Positions 20,922-30,570 of a stretch of DNA of 64,000 bases are shown here, one piece after another; within the stretch, counting starts at the first letter, position 1; every line of letters starts with the position of its first letter. The notes below the pieces were generated by a model. That model ran no database searches. It worked only from the letters and a program-made list of their open reading frames with translations, and was not told the origin of the DNA. This DNA is from Nocardioidaceae bacterium (GTDB lineage Bacteria > Actinomycetota > Actinomycetes > Propionibacteriales > Nocardioidaceae). A program made the translations under genes and the position numbers. The stretch is taken from contig JABFXA010000128.1 in assembly GCA_013361955.1 (NCBI GenBank), positions 1 to 64,000 on the forward strand, read 5' to 3'.

Positions 20922-22562
20922 TCAGCCGGGTGCGTTCCGGTCGGCATCGATCGCCACCCGCAGGACGGCGTCGAAGCCGGTCCCGGACGCCTCGAACTGC
21001 CAGTGCCCGTTGGCGTCCCGCTTCATCTGCCGGACCGCGGCGCGGACCCCGTCGCCGGCCTGCGCGTCGGCAAGGGCGGTGAGCTCCTTCCGCGTGCGCG
21101 CATCGCGCAGACCGACGTACTGCTCACCGGTGTGCAGGAACAGCGCCGGGTCGGCGCTCGGGAACGCCTGCACGTAGTACTGCTTGCGGAAGATCACGTT
21201 GTCGGAGAAGCCGATGCCGCGGGTGTCACGCTCGCCCACGTACATGTCGAGGCGGAACACCAGGCCGGGCGTCGTCTGCTCGGGCTTGACGCGACCGTCG
21301 ACCCATCCCTCCCAGATCAACCGGTCGGCCCCGGCCCACCCCGTGGTCGCGTCGCCACGGTCCGCCAGCGGCTTGCGGAGCTCGGGCTCGAGCGGCGGTG
21401 GACCGTCGGCCAACGCCTTGTCCCTGAAGGGGCCGTAGCAGTTCTCCGCGTCCGGACTCTGGTGGAACAGCTCGAAGTCGACGAACCGAGGCTTGATGCT
21501 CACCCCGAAGTAGAACTCGCTGTCCCCGAACCAGTCCCCACCGCGCTCGATCCGGGCGTCGTCCAGCCACAGCCGGACCCGGTGGGTCCCGTGGAAGAAG
21601 CGCATCGCGATCTCGTAGGCCTCGCGGGACGTGACCAGCGAGTCGACCCCACCATGACACTTGTCGACGAACGTCCGCGGCGCGGCGGGCAGCTGGGCGG
21701 CCGACTGCTTGACCAGGCCGTCGCTGCGGTTGGTCATCAGCGAACCTTCGTCGACCAGGGTCGAGAGCCGGTTCGCGAGCGAAGCGGCCGCGACGCCGTA
21801 CGCCCGGTAGTTGGTGCCCACCACCGTGAGGATCCGGTCCACGGGGAACGCCTTCTCGATCTCGAGGAACCGGGTGCTCTCCGGCGAGAAGGACTCCAGC
21901 TCATCCGACCCGTCCTTCGCCTGGGGCAGCGCCTCCAACAGCCAGCCCGGCAGCCGCTGGAACGCGATGCCGCGATGCGGCGTGCCGAGCGTGACCACCC
22001 GGTGCACCAGCTGCGACGCCGAGCCCGGCCGGTCCGCGTGCATGGCCAGCAGCGCCTCGCGCACGACGAGCCCGCCCATGCTGTGCGCCACGACGTCGAC
22101 GCCGCTGAACCCGCCCGGCGTGTGCCTCTCGACCGACTTCCTGATCAGTCGCACCAGCCGGTACAGCCCCCGGCCGTACGTCGCCAGCCCGCGCGGGCGG
22201 AGGTCGTAGAACCGGTAGACCCAGATCGTGCCGTTGGCGTCCTGGGCCAGGACCCGCTTGGCGATCTGGGGATCGATCAGCACCGTCCCGCTCGCGTCGT
22301 CGGGGTCGAAGCCCTCGAGGTCGGGCGGCGCGGTCATCTGGTCGGCGTAGTAGCCGACGACGTTCGTCGCGTCCGTGTAGCGGTAGCGGTCCGACTTCAG
22401 GGCGCGCAGCAGGAAGCCTTCGTAGATGTAGTTGTCGCCACGTCGGCCCGGGTACACCGTGCCGTCGTTGTAGCCCTGGTAGGCGTTGCGCTGCTCGGCG
22501 GTGACGTCGAGGCCTCCGAAGCCCCGCACGAGCACCAACGGTCGCGTGGCTGAGTCCGCCAT
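20922..22562 (-). CDS. Alpha/beta hydrolase, PGAP1/lipase-like, with additional C-terminal region
   Basis: GVDVVAHSMGGLVVREALLAM nucleophile elbow; VHRVVTLGTPHRGIAFQRLP. Confidence 0.75.
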   Translation of the reverse strand: MADSATRPLVLVRGFGGLDVTAEQRNAYQGYNDGTVYPGRRGDNYIYEGFLLRALKSDRYRYTDATNVVGYYADQMTAPPDLEGFDPDDASGTVLIDPQIAKRVLAQDANGTIWVYRFYDLRPRGLATYGRGLYRLVRLIRKSVERHTPGGFSGVDVVAHSMGGLVVREALLAMHADRPGSASQLVHRVVTLGTPHRGIAFQRLPGWLLEALPQAKDGSDELESFSPESTRFLEIEKAFPVDRILTVVGTNYRAYGVAAASLANRLSTLVDEGSLMTNRSDGLVKQSAAQLPAAPRTFVDKCHGGVDSLVTSREAYEIAMRFFHGTHRVRLWLDDARIERGGDWFGDSEFYFGVSIKPRFVDFELFHQSPDAENCYGPFRDKALADGPPPLEPELRKPLADRGDATTGWAGADRLIWEGWVDGRVKPEQTTPGLVFRLDMYVGERDTRGIGFSDNVIFRKQYYVQAFPSADPALFLHTGEQYVGLRDARTRKELTALADAQAGDGVRAAVRQMKRDANGHWQFEASGTGFDAVLRVAIDADRNAPG

Positions 22563-22676
22563 GGTGACCCCCTCGGCGGCCACCACCGCGACAGCCGCCT
22601 TTACCAAGGTCCGGCCTCAGGCGACCGTCGTCCATAGGGCGGACGGACCATTCGGCCGCGCACACGTGCGCGGGCG

Positions 22677-23048
22677 TCAGGCCCGGAGCGAACGGATGAA
22701 CTCGTCGACGAGCTGCTGCTGCTGGTCAGCCGTGGCCGCGGAGAGCTCCAGTGTCCGCCCGTCGACCGTCACCTTCAGCGACCGTGAGGCGCCCCGCTGC
22801 ACCCACGTCCGCACGACGGAGACGACGGCGTTCACGAGCGGCAGCGAGTCCTTGAGGTGCACGAGCAGCGCGCCGATCGCGGCCAGCTCGAGGCCCTTGC
22901 TGTCGTCCGGCGCCGGCCCGGCCGCGAGCGGGGACACGGAGTCCACGTCGAGCTGGAGCAGCTCCTGGCGGAGGTCACCGGCGAGTCGGTCGAGCTCCTC
23001 GGCGTCGGCCTCGGGCTCGAAGATCTCGATCGTCAGCTCGGTGCTCAT
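22677..23048 (-). CDS. Effector-associated constant component EACC1-like protein
   Basis: About 123 aa: ELDRLAGDLRQELLQLDV...KGLELAAIGALLVHLKDSLPLVNAVVSVVRTWVQRGASRSLKVTVDGRTLELSAATADQQQQLVDEFI; fold/length pattern of EACC1 plus adjacent caspase gene. Confidence 0.78.
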   Translation of the reverse strand: MSTELTIEIFEPEADAEELDRLAGDLRQELLQLDVDSVSPLAAGPAPDDSKGLELAAIGALLVHLKDSLPLVNAVVSVVRTWVQRGASRSLKVTVDGRTLELSAATADQQQQLVDEFIRSLRA

Positions 23049-23230
23049 CGCGCCCACCCCGTCCCCGTCCTCGCTCCTCCTGGCTCGACTTGAGCACAGG
23101 CCGGGGGGTGCGTCAACCGACGAACGGCGCGTGCAGTCGCGGATTCCACCTGGCGCCTGAACGTAACGTGTCGTATACCTGCTGGTGGGGGTCGAAGGTC
23201 GGCAGACCTGGACGGGGAAGTAGGTCGGCG

Positions 23231-24748
23231 ATGTCCGGATCGCCAGTCGCCCGGACCGAAGACGCGGTCACCTCGCGCCGGGTGGCACTCGTGGTCGCCG
23301 TGACGGACTACGTCGACGGAGCGGTGCGAAGACTGCGCGCGCCGGCCGGCGACGCGGCCGAGCTGCGCGACCTGCTCGCCGACCCGGAGATCGGCGGTTT
23401 CTCGGTCACGTCGGTGGTCAACGAAAGAGCCCAGCAGATCCGGCTCTCCATCGAGGACTTCCTGTCCGACCGCCGTCCCAACGACCTGCTCCTCGTGTAC
23501 CTCTCGTGCCACGGCCTGATGGATGCCCGTCGTCGTCTGTACTTCGCCGCCCGCGACACGATCAAGAACCGGCTCGCATCGTCGGGCGTGGAGGCGCACT
23601 GGCTGCTCGACCAGCTGGAGGAGTGTCGCGCCCGCCGGCAGATCGTGATCCTCGACTGCTGCTTCAGCGGCGCGTTCGCCCACGGCGCCAAGGGTGATGA
23701 CGACGACATCCGCCTCGGCGAGCGACTCGTCGGCGAGGGACGCGGCAGGGTGGTGCTGACGGCGTCGCGCGCCAGCGAGTACTCCTTCGAGGGCGAGCCG
23801 CTGCAGGGCGAGGACAGTGCGCGCGGATCGGTGTTCACCAGCGCGCTGATCGACGGCATCCGCAGCGGCCGGGCCGACCTGGACGAGGACGGCGACATCT
23901 CCGTCGACGACGCCTACGCGTACGCCTTCGAGCAGGTGCGCCGGTCCGGCACCCAGCAGACACCGCAACGCTGGTTGTACGGCGCGGAGGGCTCGATCCT
24001 GCTGGCCCACACCGCCCAGCGCCAGGCGGCGTCCGACGTACCCGACCCGGCGCCCGAGCTCGTTGCCGCGACGGAGCCGGCACCCGTCCCCCGTCGAGGC
24101 GACTCGTCGCGGCCGAGGGCACGGACCGCCCTCATCGCCGGTGTCGCCGCGCTGGCGCTCGGGGCGGCCGTGCTGGTCGGCGTGCTGATCGCACCGGACG
24201 GCGACCCGGGCGCGACGTCGACGAACGGTGGAGGCGGAGGCGACACGGTGACCGACACGTTCACGACGGAGGCACCCTGGCGGTTCAAGATCGACAACGA
24301 CACCGAGGCGACCCGCGACGGCGAGATCGGCTGCGACGTCACGCTCACCCCCGCCGACAACACCGACCAGCGCGTCTGGAGGAACTTCTTCGGCGCGAGC
24401 ACCTACCAGATGGCGGACGGGGGCGACTTCACGTACCAGGTCAACGACCCCGGCTGCCTCGTGGTGCACCTCGACGGCGACGACCTCACCAGCCTCCCGT
24501 TCAGCTCCAACGCCCAGGACGGTGACACACGTGCGTTCCAGAGCCCCGGCTTCGTCTCGATCAGCGTCTCCGCGTGGAACGGGTCGTCGACCTGCAAGCT
24601 CGTGCTCAACACCGTGGCCGAGGGCAAGACCATCAACACCGCCGACGCGGTGGACGGCAAGGGCCCGGTGCGGATGAGCACCAACGGTCCCGCACGCGTC
24701 TACGTCGCCTCCCCCACCTGCGACATCCAGGTGGCGGCCGCCGAGTAG
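23231..24748 (+). CDS. Caspase-like cysteine peptidase (EACC1-associated type) with TM helix and extracytoplasmic C-terminal domain
   Basis: RRVALVVAVTDYVDGAVRRLRAPAGDAAELRDLL; LSCHGL (His codon about 23510) and LDCCFSGAF (Cys codon about 23660); TM TALIAGVAALALGAAVLVGVLI. Confidence 0.9.
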   Translation: MSGSPVARTEDAVTSRRVALVVAVTDYVDGAVRRLRAPAGDAAELRDLLADPEIGGFSVTSVVNERAQQIRLSIEDFLSDRRPNDLLLVYLSCHGLMDARRRLYFAARDTIKNRLASSGVEAHWLLDQLEECRARRQIVILDCCFSGAFAHGAKGDDDDIRLGERLVGEGRGRVVLTASRASEYSFEGEPLQGEDSARGSVFTSALIDGIRSGRADLDEDGDISVDDAYAYAFEQVRRSGTQQTPQRWLYGAEGSILLAHTAQRQAASDVPDPAPELVAATEPAPVPRRGDSSRPRARTALIAGVAALALGAAVLVGVLIAPDGDPGATSTNGGGGGDTVTDTFTTEAPWRFKIDNDTEATRDGEIGCDVTLTPADNTDQRVWRNFFGASTYQMADGGDFTYQVNDPGCLVVHLDGDDLTSLPFSSNAQDGDTRAFQSPGFVSISVSAWNGSSTCKLVLNTVAEGKTINTADAVDGKGPVRMSTNGPARVYVASPTCDIQVAAAE

Positions 24749-24752
24749 GGCG

Positions 24753-26177
24753 TCAGGGCATCGCCGGCGTGTGCCTCGAGTGTTGGGCCTGCCACCGCAC
24801 CTCGCGCTTCTTGGGTTGACCCACGCAGACGGCCCACCAGAGCAGCAGGCAGCCCGCCACGATGAGGACCGACCCGACCCATGCCGACAAGTCCGCTCCT
24901 TCGTCCGTGAAGTCGCGGTAGAGAGATGTGGCTCTGATCCCGACCTGATACATCAGGATGACGCCGATACATGTCCGCAGAGCCCGGGTTTGGTCGCTGT
25001 TGCCCAGCACCACGGCGGCGATGGCGCAGAGCAAGAACGGGATGAGGCTGTCCACCCGGACCAACCACGGCTCGGAGTCGAGAGCCAACGGCAGGGCCCC
25101 GGCTGAGTCGCCAGTCACCGCCTTCGCCAACCGGTCCGCCTGCGAGTGAACAAGGAATCCAAGAACCGCGAGGAAGAGCGCCACAACCGCCTGGAGCAGA
25201 TGGTTGCTGTGCAGACGCTCCCGCAACCGAGCACTGGTCGCGATGCCGACAGCAGCGGCCAACAGCAGGAGGACCAGCACGGTGTGGACGACGTGGTGCG
25301 GCTCGGTCCGGTCATGGAACGCGGCCCAGGATTCGGCCACCATCCATGCTGCGGCGGCGGTCAGGCCGAGCATCGTGCCCAGCGTCGACGGCTTGCCGCG
25401 GTACACCAGCACCGCTGAGACCAGGGCGACGAGCCCCGGCAACAACCACAGGAACGCGAGCCATTCGTCTGTGTCGGGCTGGAAGTGCCGTGCAGCTCGT
25501 AGGTCGTCGAAGATGCTCGGGAGAGCCACGAGCAGGAGCACCAACGACGCCGTCAACAGGCCGACAAGACCCCACCGGAGACCGGGCGCGAACGCCTCGT
25601 CGCTCCGCGGTTTGGGCTTCGGCACGGGGACCGGCCGCGGTTGCCGGCGTCGCGTCCCGGGGTCGGCGAGCACCTCGTCGAGCTTCGTGAGGAGCTTGCC
25701 GACGGCCCAGTCGAACTGCTCCGGGTGCAGGGCCAGCGCCTCGCGGTACGGCAGCGTGGCCAGTGAGTGCGTCTCGGGCTCGTCCCCCGGCACGGCCGGA
25801 CTGCCCGGGAGGTCCGAGACCCGCGGCATGCGGGCGCCGTCGACCAGGATCGGCACCACCAGCACCTGGCGGCGCAGCGCGGCCTCGATCTCGATCCGTA
25901 CGTAGTCGTTCGGGTCCTCGAGGCGCCGTTCGCCGTTCTCGTCAGCGGCGGTCAGCCATGTCGGGCCGATCACCGCCAGCAGCACGTCGCACGACGCCAC
26001 CGCCTTGGTGATCTTCTTGGCGAAGTCGTCACCGAGCTCGATGGAGTCCACGTCGGTGAAGACCTGTTGCTGGCCGTAGTGCTCGACGAGGCGATCGGTG
26101 AGCCAACCCGTCGGGTAGGCGGAGTCGTCCCGCCGGTAGCTCACGAAGATCCGGCCCGTCACAGGCATCTTGTCCAT
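24753..26177 (-). CDS. TIR domain protein with C-terminal multi-TM region
   Basis: GRIFVSYRRDDSAYPTGWLTDRLVEHYGQQQVFTDVDSIELGDDF...CDVLLAVIGPTWL...RIEIEAALRRQVLVVPILV; multiple hydrophobic helices after residue about 190. Confidence 0.92.
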   Translation of the reverse strand: MDKMPVTGRIFVSYRRDDSAYPTGWLTDRLVEHYGQQQVFTDVDSIELGDDFAKKITKAVASCDVLLAVIGPTWLTAADENGERRLEDPNDYVRIEIEAALRRQVLVVPILVDGARMPRVSDLPGSPAVPGDEPETHSLATLPYREALALHPEQFDWAVGKLLTKLDEVLADPGTRRRQPRPVPVPKPKPRSDEAFAPGLRWGLVGLLTASLVLLLVALPSIFDDLRAARHFQPDTDEWLAFLWLLPGLVALVSAVLVYRGKPSTLGTMLGLTAAAAWMVAESWAAFHDRTEPHHVVHTVLVLLLLAAAVGIATSARLRERLHSNHLLQAVVALFLAVLGFLVHSQADRLAKAVTGDSAGALPLALDSEPWLVRVDSLIPFLLCAIAAVVLGNSDQTRALRTCIGVILMYQVGIRATSLYRDFTDEGADLSAWVGSVLIVAGCLLLWWAVCVGQPKKREVRWQAQHSRHTPAMP

Positions 26178-26356
26178 GTCCCCGTCCCCTGTGGTCGAGA
26201 CGTGGGTGCGACTCCCTCAGTAGAGCACCGGGGGTCGCCGAAAAATACAACGTTCCTTCCTTGGTACAGACCTCTTCATCTCACCCGATCGGGCCATGGA
26301 CCGTCGCTCCCTAACGGTCGGACCATGGAGTGTCTCGGGCCTAGCGGGGAGGCTCC

Positions 26357-27706
26357 ATGAGATACGTGCAGACGCACCGGACCCGATGGACCGCGGCCGA
26401 GGCGGCGACCTACGTCAGGCAGCAGGCGGCCCTGCGAAGCACGAAGTGGCACCGGTTGTGTCTCGGGCTGTGTGCCCGCGCCTACGGGTACGCCGCCAGC
26501 GGGACCCCGAACGCGGACCGCGACGGCTACGTGGAGGCGTCGGACTACTGGGACTCCTCGGCGCACCGGCACGTCGGCGACCGACGTCCGCCGGTCGGCG
26601 CCCTGACCTGCTGGACACGCCCCGGCCGCGCCGGCCACATCGCCGTCGTCGTGCACAGTGGCGACCACGACGTGCACATCGCGAGCAACGACATCAACGA
26701 CGTGGTGGCCGTCGTTCCCCTCGGCTACATCGAGAAGAGCTGGGGGCTGACGTACCGCGGGTGGGCCGAGCCGGACTTCCCGAACGGCATCGGGCGGAAC
26801 CCCGAACAACGTCCTCGTCCGCGAGCCCTGGCGGACGTGTGGTGGCAGCGCCTCAGCCTCGGTGTCACCGACTCGGACAGCGTCCGTGTCTTGCAGCGGC
26901 GACTCAACGCGACCGTCCGGGCACGCCTCGAGGTGACCGGCAGCTATGACGACGCGACGCGCACCGCGGTGGCGAAGTACCAACGCAGCCTGGGCTGGAC
27001 GGGCGTCGATGCGGACGGCCTCATCTTCGACCCGGTGCGTGGCGACGGCGGCCGCGTCACCACCCGCATGCTGTTCCCGGAGACCAGGTTCGACATCCAC
27101 TGGACCGACCCGGGGACCCGCCCGGTCGTCTCGGTGGACAAGCGCCGGGTCGACGCCAAACGGGCGGGCGCCCCTCCCCGTCCGGCCCCGCGTCCGCGCA
27201 CCACCAGGCGCCCGCGAACGCTCTCCGCGTCCGGGGCACGGATGATCGGTGAGTTCGAGGGGTTCAGCGGCAGGCTCTACAACGACCCGGCCGGGCACTG
27301 CACGATCGGGTACGGCCACCTGGTGCACCGCGGACCGATCAACGGAGCGGAGCCGCAGCGCTTCTCACGCGGGATCACCGAGTCGCAGGGTCGCCGGCTG
27401 CTGCGCGAGGATGCCCGCCCGGCAGGGGAGGCCGTCTCGTCGCTCGTCAGGGTCCCCCTGTCGCAGCAGCAGTTCGACGCGCTGTGCAGCTTCACCTACA
27501 ACCTGGGTGCCGGGAACCTCAGGCGCTCCCAGCTTCTCAAGCGCCTGAACGCCGGCGAGTACGACGCGGTGCCGGAGGAGCTGAGCAAGTGGGTGAACGC
27601 CGGAGGACGGGAGCTGCCCGGGCTGGTGAGGCGTCGGCGCGCTGAGGGGGTCCTCTTCCGGGCGGGCTCGTACCCGTGGCAGACCCAGCCGGCCGCCGCC
27701 CGCTGA
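26357..27706 (+). CDS. Three-domain cell-wall hydrolase: CHAP/NlpC-like region, peptidoglycan-binding domain, GH24 lysozyme
   Basis: LCLGLCARAYGY...GALTCWTRPGRAGHIAVVV; VRVLQRRLNATVRARLEVTGSYDDATRTAVAKYQRSLG; IGEFEGFSGRLYNDPAGHCTIGYGHLVHRG. Confidence 0.85.
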   Translation: MRYVQTHRTRWTAAEAATYVRQQAALRSTKWHRLCLGLCARAYGYAASGTPNADRDGYVEASDYWDSSAHRHVGDRRPPVGALTCWTRPGRAGHIAVVVHSGDHDVHIASNDINDVVAVVPLGYIEKSWGLTYRGWAEPDFPNGIGRNPEQRPRPRALADVWWQRLSLGVTDSDSVRVLQRRLNATVRARLEVTGSYDDATRTAVAKYQRSLGWTGVDADGLIFDPVRGDGGRVTTRMLFPETRFDIHWTDPGTRPVVSVDKRRVDAKRAGAPPRPAPRPRTTRRPRTLSASGARMIGEFEGFSGRLYNDPAGHCTIGYGHLVHRGPINGAEPQRFSRGITESQGRRLLREDARPAGEAVSSLVRVPLSQQQFDALCSFTYNLGAGNLRRSQLLKRLNAGEYDAVPEELSKWVNAGGRELPGLVRRRRAEGVLFRAGSYPWQTQPAAAR

Positions 27707-27721
27707 ACACGGACGTGCGTC

Positions 27722-28696
27722 GTGCGGGGGGCGAGCAGCAGTCCGGGTGAGACGTCAGGCATCCCCGCCCGTGACCCGGCCGGACGACGGACGGGCGAGC
27801 CCGCTCCCGCCCTCACGTACGCCTGGCGCGCCCACCGTCAGTGGTCGCTGGTGGCGTCGCACGCGCGGCGGTCGTTGGAGCGGTGGCGGACGACCTACCT
27901 CGGGCTGCTGCTGGTCGGCTCGGTCCTGGCTGCGCTGGCCGCCCACCCCGGTGGGCTCGCCGGCCCAGCAGTCGGGCCGCTGGCATCGACCGCGGCGGTC
28001 GCGCTGGCGCTCGCCACGTTCGTGCAGGCCCGGTTCCTCGCCGCCCCGGCCACCCGCGAGCGATCCCGGAGCCGGGCCGCCGCCGAGGGGCTCAAGGGGC
28101 TCGTCTACCAGTACCTGGCGGGTGTCGCCCCGTACGACGCACCCGACCGCGCCGCGGTCCTGGACGCCAAGGTGGGCGAGCTGGAGACGCAGGTCGAGGA
28201 CCTGGCGCACCTGGTCGTCGGGGTCGACCCCGACGACCGTGACCTGCCCGCGGTGACCGGCGTCGCCGACTACCGCCGCGAGCGCGCCGAGGGTCAGCGT
28301 GCCTGGCACGTCCAGGCCGCCCGGGAGCACCTGCAGCGCGCCAAGGCCTGGCGCACTGCCGAGATCCTCTCGGCCGCGGCGGCCACCGTGGTGGCGGCAC
28401 TGGGAGGCGTCAACAAGTCCCACGACCTCTCCGTGTGGGTCACGGTGGCCACCACGTTCGCGGCCGCCTTCGCGGCCCAGGCCGCGGCCGGCCAGCACGA
28501 CCGCGTCGCAGACTCCTGTGCACGGACCGCGCACGACCTCGGGACGCTGCTGCGTCGCTTCGACCCCACGACCGCGACGTCGGCGACGTCGGCTGGTTTC
28601 GTCGCCGACGTCGAGGGAGTGCTGGCCGCGCAGAACCGTACGTGGCTGTCCTTGTTCCAGTCGTCGCGGGGGCTCGAGCAGCCGGGATCCCCGTGA
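27722..28696 (+). CDS. SLATT/DUF4231-like two-TM effector-type membrane protein
   Basis: Two paired hydrophobic hairpins (TYLGLLLVGSVLAALAAHP...STAAVALALATFV; ILSAAAATVVAALGGV...TVATTFAAAFAAQ) in the SLATT arrangement; coupled to a SLOG-like gene. Confidence 0.65.
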   Translation: MRGASSSPGETSGIPARDPAGRRTGEPAPALTYAWRAHRQWSLVASHARRSLERWRTTYLGLLLVGSVLAALAAHPGGLAGPAVGPLASTAAVALALATFVQARFLAAPATRERSRSRAAAEGLKGLVYQYLAGVAPYDAPDRAAVLDAKVGELETQVEDLAHLVVGVDPDDRDLPAVTGVADYRRERAEGQRAWHVQAAREHLQRAKAWRTAEILSAAAATVVAALGGVNKSHDLSVWVTVATTFAAAFAAQAAAGQHDRVADSCARTAHDLGTLLRRFDPTTATSATSAGFVADVEGVLAAQNRTWLSLFQSSRGLEQPGSP

Positions 28697-30570
28697 TCGT
28701 CACCTACGTCGGCCGCCGGGCGCACAGCCTCCCCGCGAACCTGGGCCAGGTCAGCGAGCGGATCGCCCGCCTGCTCGGCGCGCTCCGACCGACGTACCTC
28801 GTCGGCTCCGCGGCGGACGGTGCCGACCTGCTGGTCCTGGAGGCGGCGCTGTCGAGCACCGGCACTCCCGGGCTGCACGTGATCCTGCCGACGTCACGGG
28901 CGGACTTCGCCGAGGGCTCGGTCGAGGCCGCGTGGCACGACCGCTTCGACGCGGTGGTCGACGAGGTGGAGCGCCGTGGCGGCGCCGTACGGTCCCTGGA
29001 GCGGTCGGCCGGGGACCGTGCGTACCGAGACGCGAACCAGGCGATGCTCGACGCCGCGCAGGCGCTGGCTGCGGAGGCGGAACGCAACGTCCTGCTCGTC
29101 CTCGCGCGCGAGGGTGAAGGCGAGTACATCGAGGACATGCAGGCGCGCGCACGCCTGCGCGGGGTCCCCGTGTTGCGCATCGACCCGTCGGTCGACATGT
29201 CCACCCGACCTCGGTGCTTCATCGCCATGCCGTTCGGGCGCAAGCCGGATCCGCAACGCCGGATCGACGTGGACTGCGACCTGGTCTACGCCAAGGTCCT
29301 GGTCCCGGCCCTGGAGAACGCCCAGCTGAACTACCGGCGAGGCGACGAGGAGATCGACTCCGGTCTGGTTCTCGAGCCGATGATCGACGCGCTCGCGAAC
29401 GCCGACATCGTCGTCGGCGACCTCGGCACCGGCAACTTCAACGTCGGCTGGGAGCTGGGGCTTCGGCACCTGCTGCGGCCCCGGCAGACGGTGCTGATCC
29501 GGCCGGCCGGCACCACCGCCCCCTTCGACCTGGCCGCGCTTCGACACGCGCGGTACGTCCAGGACCAGACCGGCATCACCGACGGCGCCGCCATCGACGC
29601 GTGGCACGACCTGGCGCAGTACCTGTGCCGGGACGGGACTGCCGGCCCCAACGACTCCCCCGTGGCGGCCGCCATGGACGTGAAGCGATGGGCGGAGGTA
29701 CGCCGGCGCAACCGCCGCGACGCCCGGTGGGAGGAGCTGCGCCAGCGACTGGCCCTGGCTCGCGACCTCCGGGACGCGGACATGATCCGCGAGGTGCTGG
29801 CCGACGCGGACGCGCTGTCGGACGACCACCAGCGTCTGGTCCGCGCCGAGGCCGGCGTCGGCCTGGTCAGGCTGGGCCGGTTCCACGAGGCCAGACCGCT
29901 GCTCCGGGAGATCGTCGACACCGACCGACCGGTGCAGCGTCCGGATGCACACGTGTACTTCGCGCAGTCGCTGTACCGCCCCGATGGCGCGAGCCTCGCC
30001 GACCTCGACTGCGCGGAGGCGGTGCTCGAGCACGTCCTGCTCCGGCGCCCCGCCCATCCCCAGGTCCGAGCCCTGCTCGGCGCAGTCGCGAAGCGGCGGC
30101 TCCGCATGATCGACGACCCGGACCTCGTCGCTGCCGGCCTGCGGGCCGCGCTCGGCCACTATCGGCACGACGTGGAGCGGAACCTCAACCTGTACTACGA
30201 GGGCGTCAACGTGGTGGCGCTGGGCACGGCCCTCGCGGTCAGGTACGCGGACACGTCGGCGGGTCAGCTCGCGCGGGACCTGCTGCCCGCCGTCCAGGTG
30301 GCCGCCCGGCTGGCCTCACGAGGGTCCGACGACCGCTTCTGGGCCCTGGTCTCCCTCGCCGAGTGCACCCTGCACGAGCATCTCCTCGACGGCGTCCCGG
30401 ACCAGCGAGCCGTGCACGCCGCCTACGCGACCGCCGCTGCCGAGCGTCCCGTCGAAGGCGAGCTGACCAGCGCGCTCCAGCAGCTCGACCTCCTCGAGTA
30501 CCTCGGGCTCCCCGCCGTACCGATCAGGAGTGCGCGTGCGGGACTGCGCGGCGACTCCTGGCACCGATGA
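28693..30570 (+). CDS. SLOG-like Rossmann domain + nucleoside 2-deoxyribosyltransferase/TIR-like domain + TPR (TRAFs-binding/DUF4071-like) protein
   Basis: N-term YLVGSAADGADLLVLEAAL...LHVILPTSRADFAEG; middle RPRCFIAMPFGRK...MIDALANADIVVGDLGTGNFNVGWELGLRHLLRPRQTVLI; helical TPR-like C-term; GTG start overlaps SLATT stop. Confidence 0.75.
   Translation: MIVTYVGRRAHSLPANLGQVSERIARLLGALRPTYLVGSAADGADLLVLEAALSSTGTPGLHVILPTSRADFAEGSVEAAWHDRFDAVVDEVERRGGAVRSLERSAGDRAYRDANQAMLDAAQALAAEAERNVLLVLAREGEGEYIEDMQARARLRGVPVLRIDPSVDMSTRPRCFIAMPFGRKPDPQRRIDVDCDLVYAKVLVPALENAQLNYRRGDEEIDSGLVLEPMIDALANADIVVGDLGTGNFNVGWELGLRHLLRPRQTVLIRPAGTTAPFDLAALRHARYVQDQTGITDGAAIDAWHDLAQYLCRDGTAGPNDSPVAAAMDVKRWAEVRRRNRRDARWEELRQRLALARDLRDADMIREVLADADALSDDHQRLVRAEAGVGLVRLGRFHEARPLLREIVDTDRPVQRPDAHVYFAQSLYRPDGASLADLDCAEAVLEHVLLRRPAHPQVRALLGAVAKRRLRMIDDPDLVAAGLRAALGHYRHDVERNLNLYYEGVNVVALGTALAVRYADTSAGQLARDLLPAVQVAARLASRGSDDRFWALVSLAECTLHEHLLDGVPDQRAVHAAYATAAAERPVEGELTSALQQLDLLEYLGLPAVPIRSARAGLRGDSWHR

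Follow-up and report, generated by a model that had tools for sequence, protein, structure and literature searches.

The gene at 26357–27706 of the window, the 64,000-nucleotide stretch of DNA analysed here (contig C309 of a 4.7 Mb assembly in 478 contigs), probably encodes a leaderless bacterial chromosomal peptidoglycan hydrolase of the endolysin type, which would be kept in the cytosol and act when the membrane barrier fails. We put the probability of this reading, which draws on sequence comparison, at roughly 0.6. The domains, the catalytic residues, the conserved leaderless architecture, the non-prophage setting and the tight spacing to a SLATT gene all support it. Against it, the GH24 module is of phage type and a past prophage origin is likely, and the tight operon with SLATT would be a coincidence if the protein, hereafter the lysin, were a plain chromosomal hydrolase. 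Made without an export signal, the lysin would be stored in the cytosol away from its peptidoglycan substrate. It would reach the wall once the membrane barrier gives way, whether because the cell autolyses, because a phage or prophage lyses it or because a pore of any kind has formed. There the GH24 domain would cleave the glycan, the CHAP/NlpC-like domain would cut a peptide or amide bond and PG_binding_1 would anchor the enzyme. That the co-oriented SLATT protein causes the membrane failure in this genome is a tentative and rather unlikely addition. The gene and its parts are as follows.

26346..26352, plus strand: GGGGAGG, Shine-Dalgarno-like, 4 nt before ATG26357 (direct reading)
26357..27706, plus strand: lysin gene, 449 aa, leaderless CHAP/NlpC-like – PG_binding_1 – GH24 hydrolase
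26390..26782, plus strand: N-terminal CHAP/NlpC-P60-type domain (N-domain; Pfam CHAP and a profile of 27 relatives)
26459–26461, plus strand: Cys35 of the N-domain (alignment of relatives)
26636–26638, plus strand: His94 of the N-domain (alignment of relatives)
26690–26692, plus strand: Asp112 of the N-domain (alignment of relatives)
26873..27007, plus strand: PG_binding_1 domain (PGB), residues 173–217 (Pfam, E 4.8e-6)
27251..27646, plus strand: GH24 domain (Phage_lysozyme, PF00959), residues 299–430 (Pfam, E 1.7e-42)

The open reading frame is intact and is coding as judged by GC content at the three codon positions (0.69/0.56/0.90). In-frame stops lie just 5' of ATG26357, and within residues 1–40 no 19-residue stretch has a mean hydropathy above about zero. 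The N-terminus is thus not hydrophobic, and the sequence rules out a classical secretion signal, in agreement with the first-pass annotation; the protein lacks a signal peptide, as endolysins do. No export tag was recognised in it either. The C-terminal GH24 lysozyme proposed in that annotation is confirmed by a PF00959 score of 145.1 bits against a cut-off of 22.3 and by the intact, T4-like spacing E301-x8-D310-x5-T316, which is invariant across the three full-length proteins known from our searches. This domain is the sole PF00959 match found in the genome. The N-terminal region had been described as a Cys/His amidase-like region, and the Cys/His part holds: in an alignment of 27 relatives neither Cys35 nor His94 varies and Asp112 hardly does, giving a Cys-His-polar triad. 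Pfam CHAP matches residues 49–107 of the lysin with an E-value of 9.5e-5 and 24.5 bits, just below the curated cut-off of 26; CHAP is recognised in 23 of the 27 relatives at E <= 0.1 (best 3.5e-8) and 16 of the 27 match NlpC/P60, and the profile of the N-domain against the PDB places the CwlO endopeptidase on top (E 0.0012). The region is better called CHAP/NlpC-P60-type than amidase-like. What had been taken for a peptidoglycan-binding repeat is one PG_binding_1 domain, and a second copy is found in the homologues from genomes G837 and G871. An AlphaFold model built from three sequences has a pLDDT of 36, too low to be of use.

The full architecture was found in just these two other genomes among the 346 of the family that were searched, with 47% (G837) and 46% (G871) identity to the lysin. 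Both proteins are leaderless and share its start site; for G837, codon-position GC places the start of coding at the shared site and rules out a long upstream extension. They sit in housekeeping surroundings (genes for alcohol dehydrogenase, MerR, an amidase, sigma-70 and DUF389), and no phage structural or lysis genes were found near them by Pfam and reading. The first-pass annotation would have been contradicted by homologues that always sit in prophages or by a secretion signal; instead, the full-length homologues are leaderless and chromosomal, and only short relatives consisting of the N-domain alone sit in prophages. Partial architectures extend the picture. Kribbella, G404 and G476 encode leaderless N-domain+PGB proteins in chromosomal settings without recognisable phage genes. 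Leaderless PGB+GH24 and GH24+PGB proteins are encoded in the tatC region of G1006 and at the end of the nuo operon in G1036, again with no recognisable phage genes around them. G019 carries an M23 endopeptidase with the same PGB domain, which is also chromosomal with no recognisable phage genes around it. In two Kribbella genomes (L032, L090) the N-domain+PGB gene lies between glutamine-synthetase-type genes and a methyltransferase, as labelled by eye, and the retention of this neighbourhood in both marks it as a settled chromosomal gene. A contig scan with narrow back-translated patterns (alignment A1) found two Kribbella loci only. In G476 (L086:91-1898) a 344 aa membrane protein with no Pfam match overlaps the start of the N-domain+PGB gene by 4 nt, and is possibly a dedicated membrane partner of its product.

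Longer proteins of other actinobacteria that apparently have a membrane segment or signal at the N-terminus also contain the N-domain. Among the actinobacterial proteins that are membrane-anchored or secreted, many (L016, L018, L035-L051) have it at the C-terminus, accompanied by a lytic-transglycosylase-like region, an arrangement reminiscent of conjugation hydrolases. A GH24 relative of different architecture in G118, from the same order, has an apparent signal peptide and counts against the reading favoured here. The lysin group is scattered in actinobacteria, and the enzyme itself seems fairly ordinary. Leaderless, non-prophage hydrolases of the endolysin type recur in actinobacterial chromosomes at scattered, unrelated places.

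The setting of the lysin in the window is defined by the following genes.

20922..22607, minus strand: PGAP1/DUF676-like alpha/beta hydrolase (HMM match)
22677..23057, minus strand: putative small EACC1-like protein, assigned from its position and a central hydrophobic segment, without an HMM match
23231..24748, plus strand: single-TM caspase of the EACC1-associated type, with ATG23231 taken as its start
24753..26177, minus strand: TIR_2 protein with some six TM segments, oriented divergently from the lysin, 179 bp away
27722..28696, plus strand: tandem SLATT membrane protein (DUF4231/SLATT_3 and SLATT_1)
28693..30570, plus strand: SLOG-like, TIR-like and TPR-S-like protein; its start GTG28693 and the SLATT stop share a GTGA

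The lysin is indeed surrounded by a signalling island, as first annotated, with a caspase of the EACC1 type that scores 166 bits (cut-off 140), a TIR protein and a genuine, co-directional SLATT protein as its downstream neighbour. For the last gene of the list, the SLOG label comes from sequence reading and the TPR-S label from homology to a protein of G013. The PGAP1-like hydrolase, the EACC1-like protein and the caspase are grouped (20922-24748), the EACC1-like gene and the caspase being divergent; the published arrangement has EACC1 5' and the caspase 3' (PMC7159879), and the order in the window differs. As to synteny of the island in genomes of the same genus, inositol-type genes are present in G334 and G911, where the left flanks differ and the HAD neighbour is absent. 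GTG27722 is the sole in-frame ATG/GTG/TTG/CTG start ahead of the SLATT domain. A SLATT start fixed 15 nt past the lysin stop, together with the GTGA overlap with the next gene, makes it likely that the lysin, SLATT and SLOG/TPR genes form one operon with the lysin gene first. No terminator-like site was found between lysin and SLATT; a scan of both strands for sigma-70 promoters and terminators gave no sites and is uninformative at this GC.

An operon of this kind invites the explanation that the lysin arms a suicide module, in which invasion is detected by the SLOG/TPR-S protein, the SLATT pore serves as the holin and the lysin, made alongside, gets out and breaks down the wall. The shared strand, the 15 nt gap and the GTGA overlap speak for it, and the sole SLATT start, which has no clear Shine-Dalgarno sequence, suggests translational coupling with the lysin. 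A nucleotide-responsive pore has been predicted for SLATT, and EAD1-coupled lysozyme and papain-like peptidoglycan peptidase domains have been proposed as effectors in related conflict systems (PMC7159879), both of which count in favour of the module. However, no EAD domain was matched in the lysin by Pfam or NCBIfam, and SLATT pores are predictions whose width may not let a protein of ~49 kDa pass. The pairing, moreover, was found in a single genome. The first-pass annotation had suggested looking for SLATT, TIR or caspase genes beside homologues: with the window proteins as tblastn queries, relatives of the SLATT, TIR, caspase, hydrolase and SLOG/TPR proteins were found at none of ten non-prophage lysin-type loci, a search that highly divergent TIR or caspase genes may escape. 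SLATT_1 has no match in the G837 and G871 genomes, and no lysin lies beside the SLATT homologues of G013 and G110. None was seen near the SLOG/TPR homologues of G066, G102, G818 and G134 either, as judged from gene lists read by eye and from the absence of these genomes from the results of the whole-family lysin search. The G110 SLATT homologue adjoins a TIR-nSTAND-WD40 protein, and in G013 (L083:8443-11391) TPR-S is fused to tandem SLATT in a 982 aa protein that adjoins a SLOG-like/patatin protein. The adjacency behind the holin/endolysin analogy of the annotation stands; a conserved partnership is not supported. As far as this small sample goes, the lysin–SLATT partnership is not conserved, and the place of the lysin at the head of the operon appears to be lineage-specific. 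We regard the suicide module as unlikely. If it were true, a bacterial conflict operon would have captured an endolysin, and a SLOG/TPR-controlled SLATT would make a leaking membrane lead to loss of the wall. The adjacency is unusual and open to test: the locus gives one testable answer to how such enzymes reach the wall, with a defence pore as the holin, and the comparative evidence does not bear this out as a general rule.

More improbable still is that the gene is the remnant lysis gene of a decayed prophage, left beside conflict genes by chance. The GH24 module is closest to phage sequences: it matches phrog_7 with an E-value of 2.8e-47, and it is of phage type and probably of phage origin in the past, since its best relatives in IMG/VR (53%) lie in two phage-like contigs. 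Viral scans found nothing in the first round and phage GH24 only in the second. Related short lysins do occur in prophages of the family. The true prophages of G864, G374 and this genome carry the relative as a short N-domain protein encoded next to tail genes; in this genome a prophage fragment (C423:1-6021, L100) holds a short leaderless N-domain protein, tail genes and two small holin-like TM proteins. Against a remnant, the reading frame and the catalytic residues are preserved, and the full architecture recurs in two unrelated non-phage contexts. The whole lysin matches 1884 phage records, none of which spans more than 80% of the protein; the phage record matches listed are through GH24, some with PGB too, and the N-domain+PGB part has no match among 50,697 phage records at E <= 0.01. 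The assembled CHAP-PGB-GH24 protein looks like a chromosomal product. None of the selected window neighbours matched a structural, integrase or holin family in PHROGs, in line with the first-pass annotation, and their matches, besides that of the lysin itself, are to families of metabolic, other or unknown function only. With PHROGs and Pfam scans of selected neighbours revealing no phage genes, a prophage context for the lysin was rejected. A wall-remodelling or antagonism enzyme that is exported independently of a leader, for example by a contractile or type VII system, is about as improbable as a remnant. Such export would account for a lysin that is leaderless yet conserved, and CHAP/NlpC-like and GH24 domains act as exported effectors elsewhere. 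However, the only secretion-system genes recognised near the lysin and its homologues are the general tatA/tatC near the G1006 relative, and no export tag was recognised either.

The chromosomal hydrolase that we favour can be compared with several known systems. The SLATT and SLOG/TPR genes of the window match the nucleotide-centric SLATT/TPR-S conflict systems in kind, and in G013 TPR-S and tandem SLATT are fused, whereas the related loci examined here are without a wall hydrolase. The EAD1-coupled effectors (Kaur et al. 2020, PMC7159879) likewise place wall hydrolase domains among conflict genes of the caspase/EACC1 kind, but here there is no EAD1 match, no NucA-trypsin system was seen and the link to conflict genes is not conserved. 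Phage endolysins (GH24, PHROG 7, released by holins) are, like the lysin, leaderless and modular, with GH24 and a wall-binding domain. The lysin differs from them in having no phage genes or recognised holin alongside and in its limited coverage by phage sequences. The endolysin of explosive cell lysis, unlike the lysin, reportedly comes from a Gram-negative species and from a cluster of the pyocin/phage type. Explosive lysis by that endolysin is established (PMC4834629), and it resembles the lysin as proposed here in being a wall hydrolase of the cytosol that bursts the cell on getting out. Leaderless prophage endolysins contribute to autolysis in Lactococcus, also where they are expressed in the absence of their cognate holin (PMC5247546). 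Like the lysin, they have no signal peptide and combine a catalytic domain with PG_binding_1; they are prophage genes with a holin gene after them, whereas the lysin described here is chromosomal and carries an added GH24 domain.
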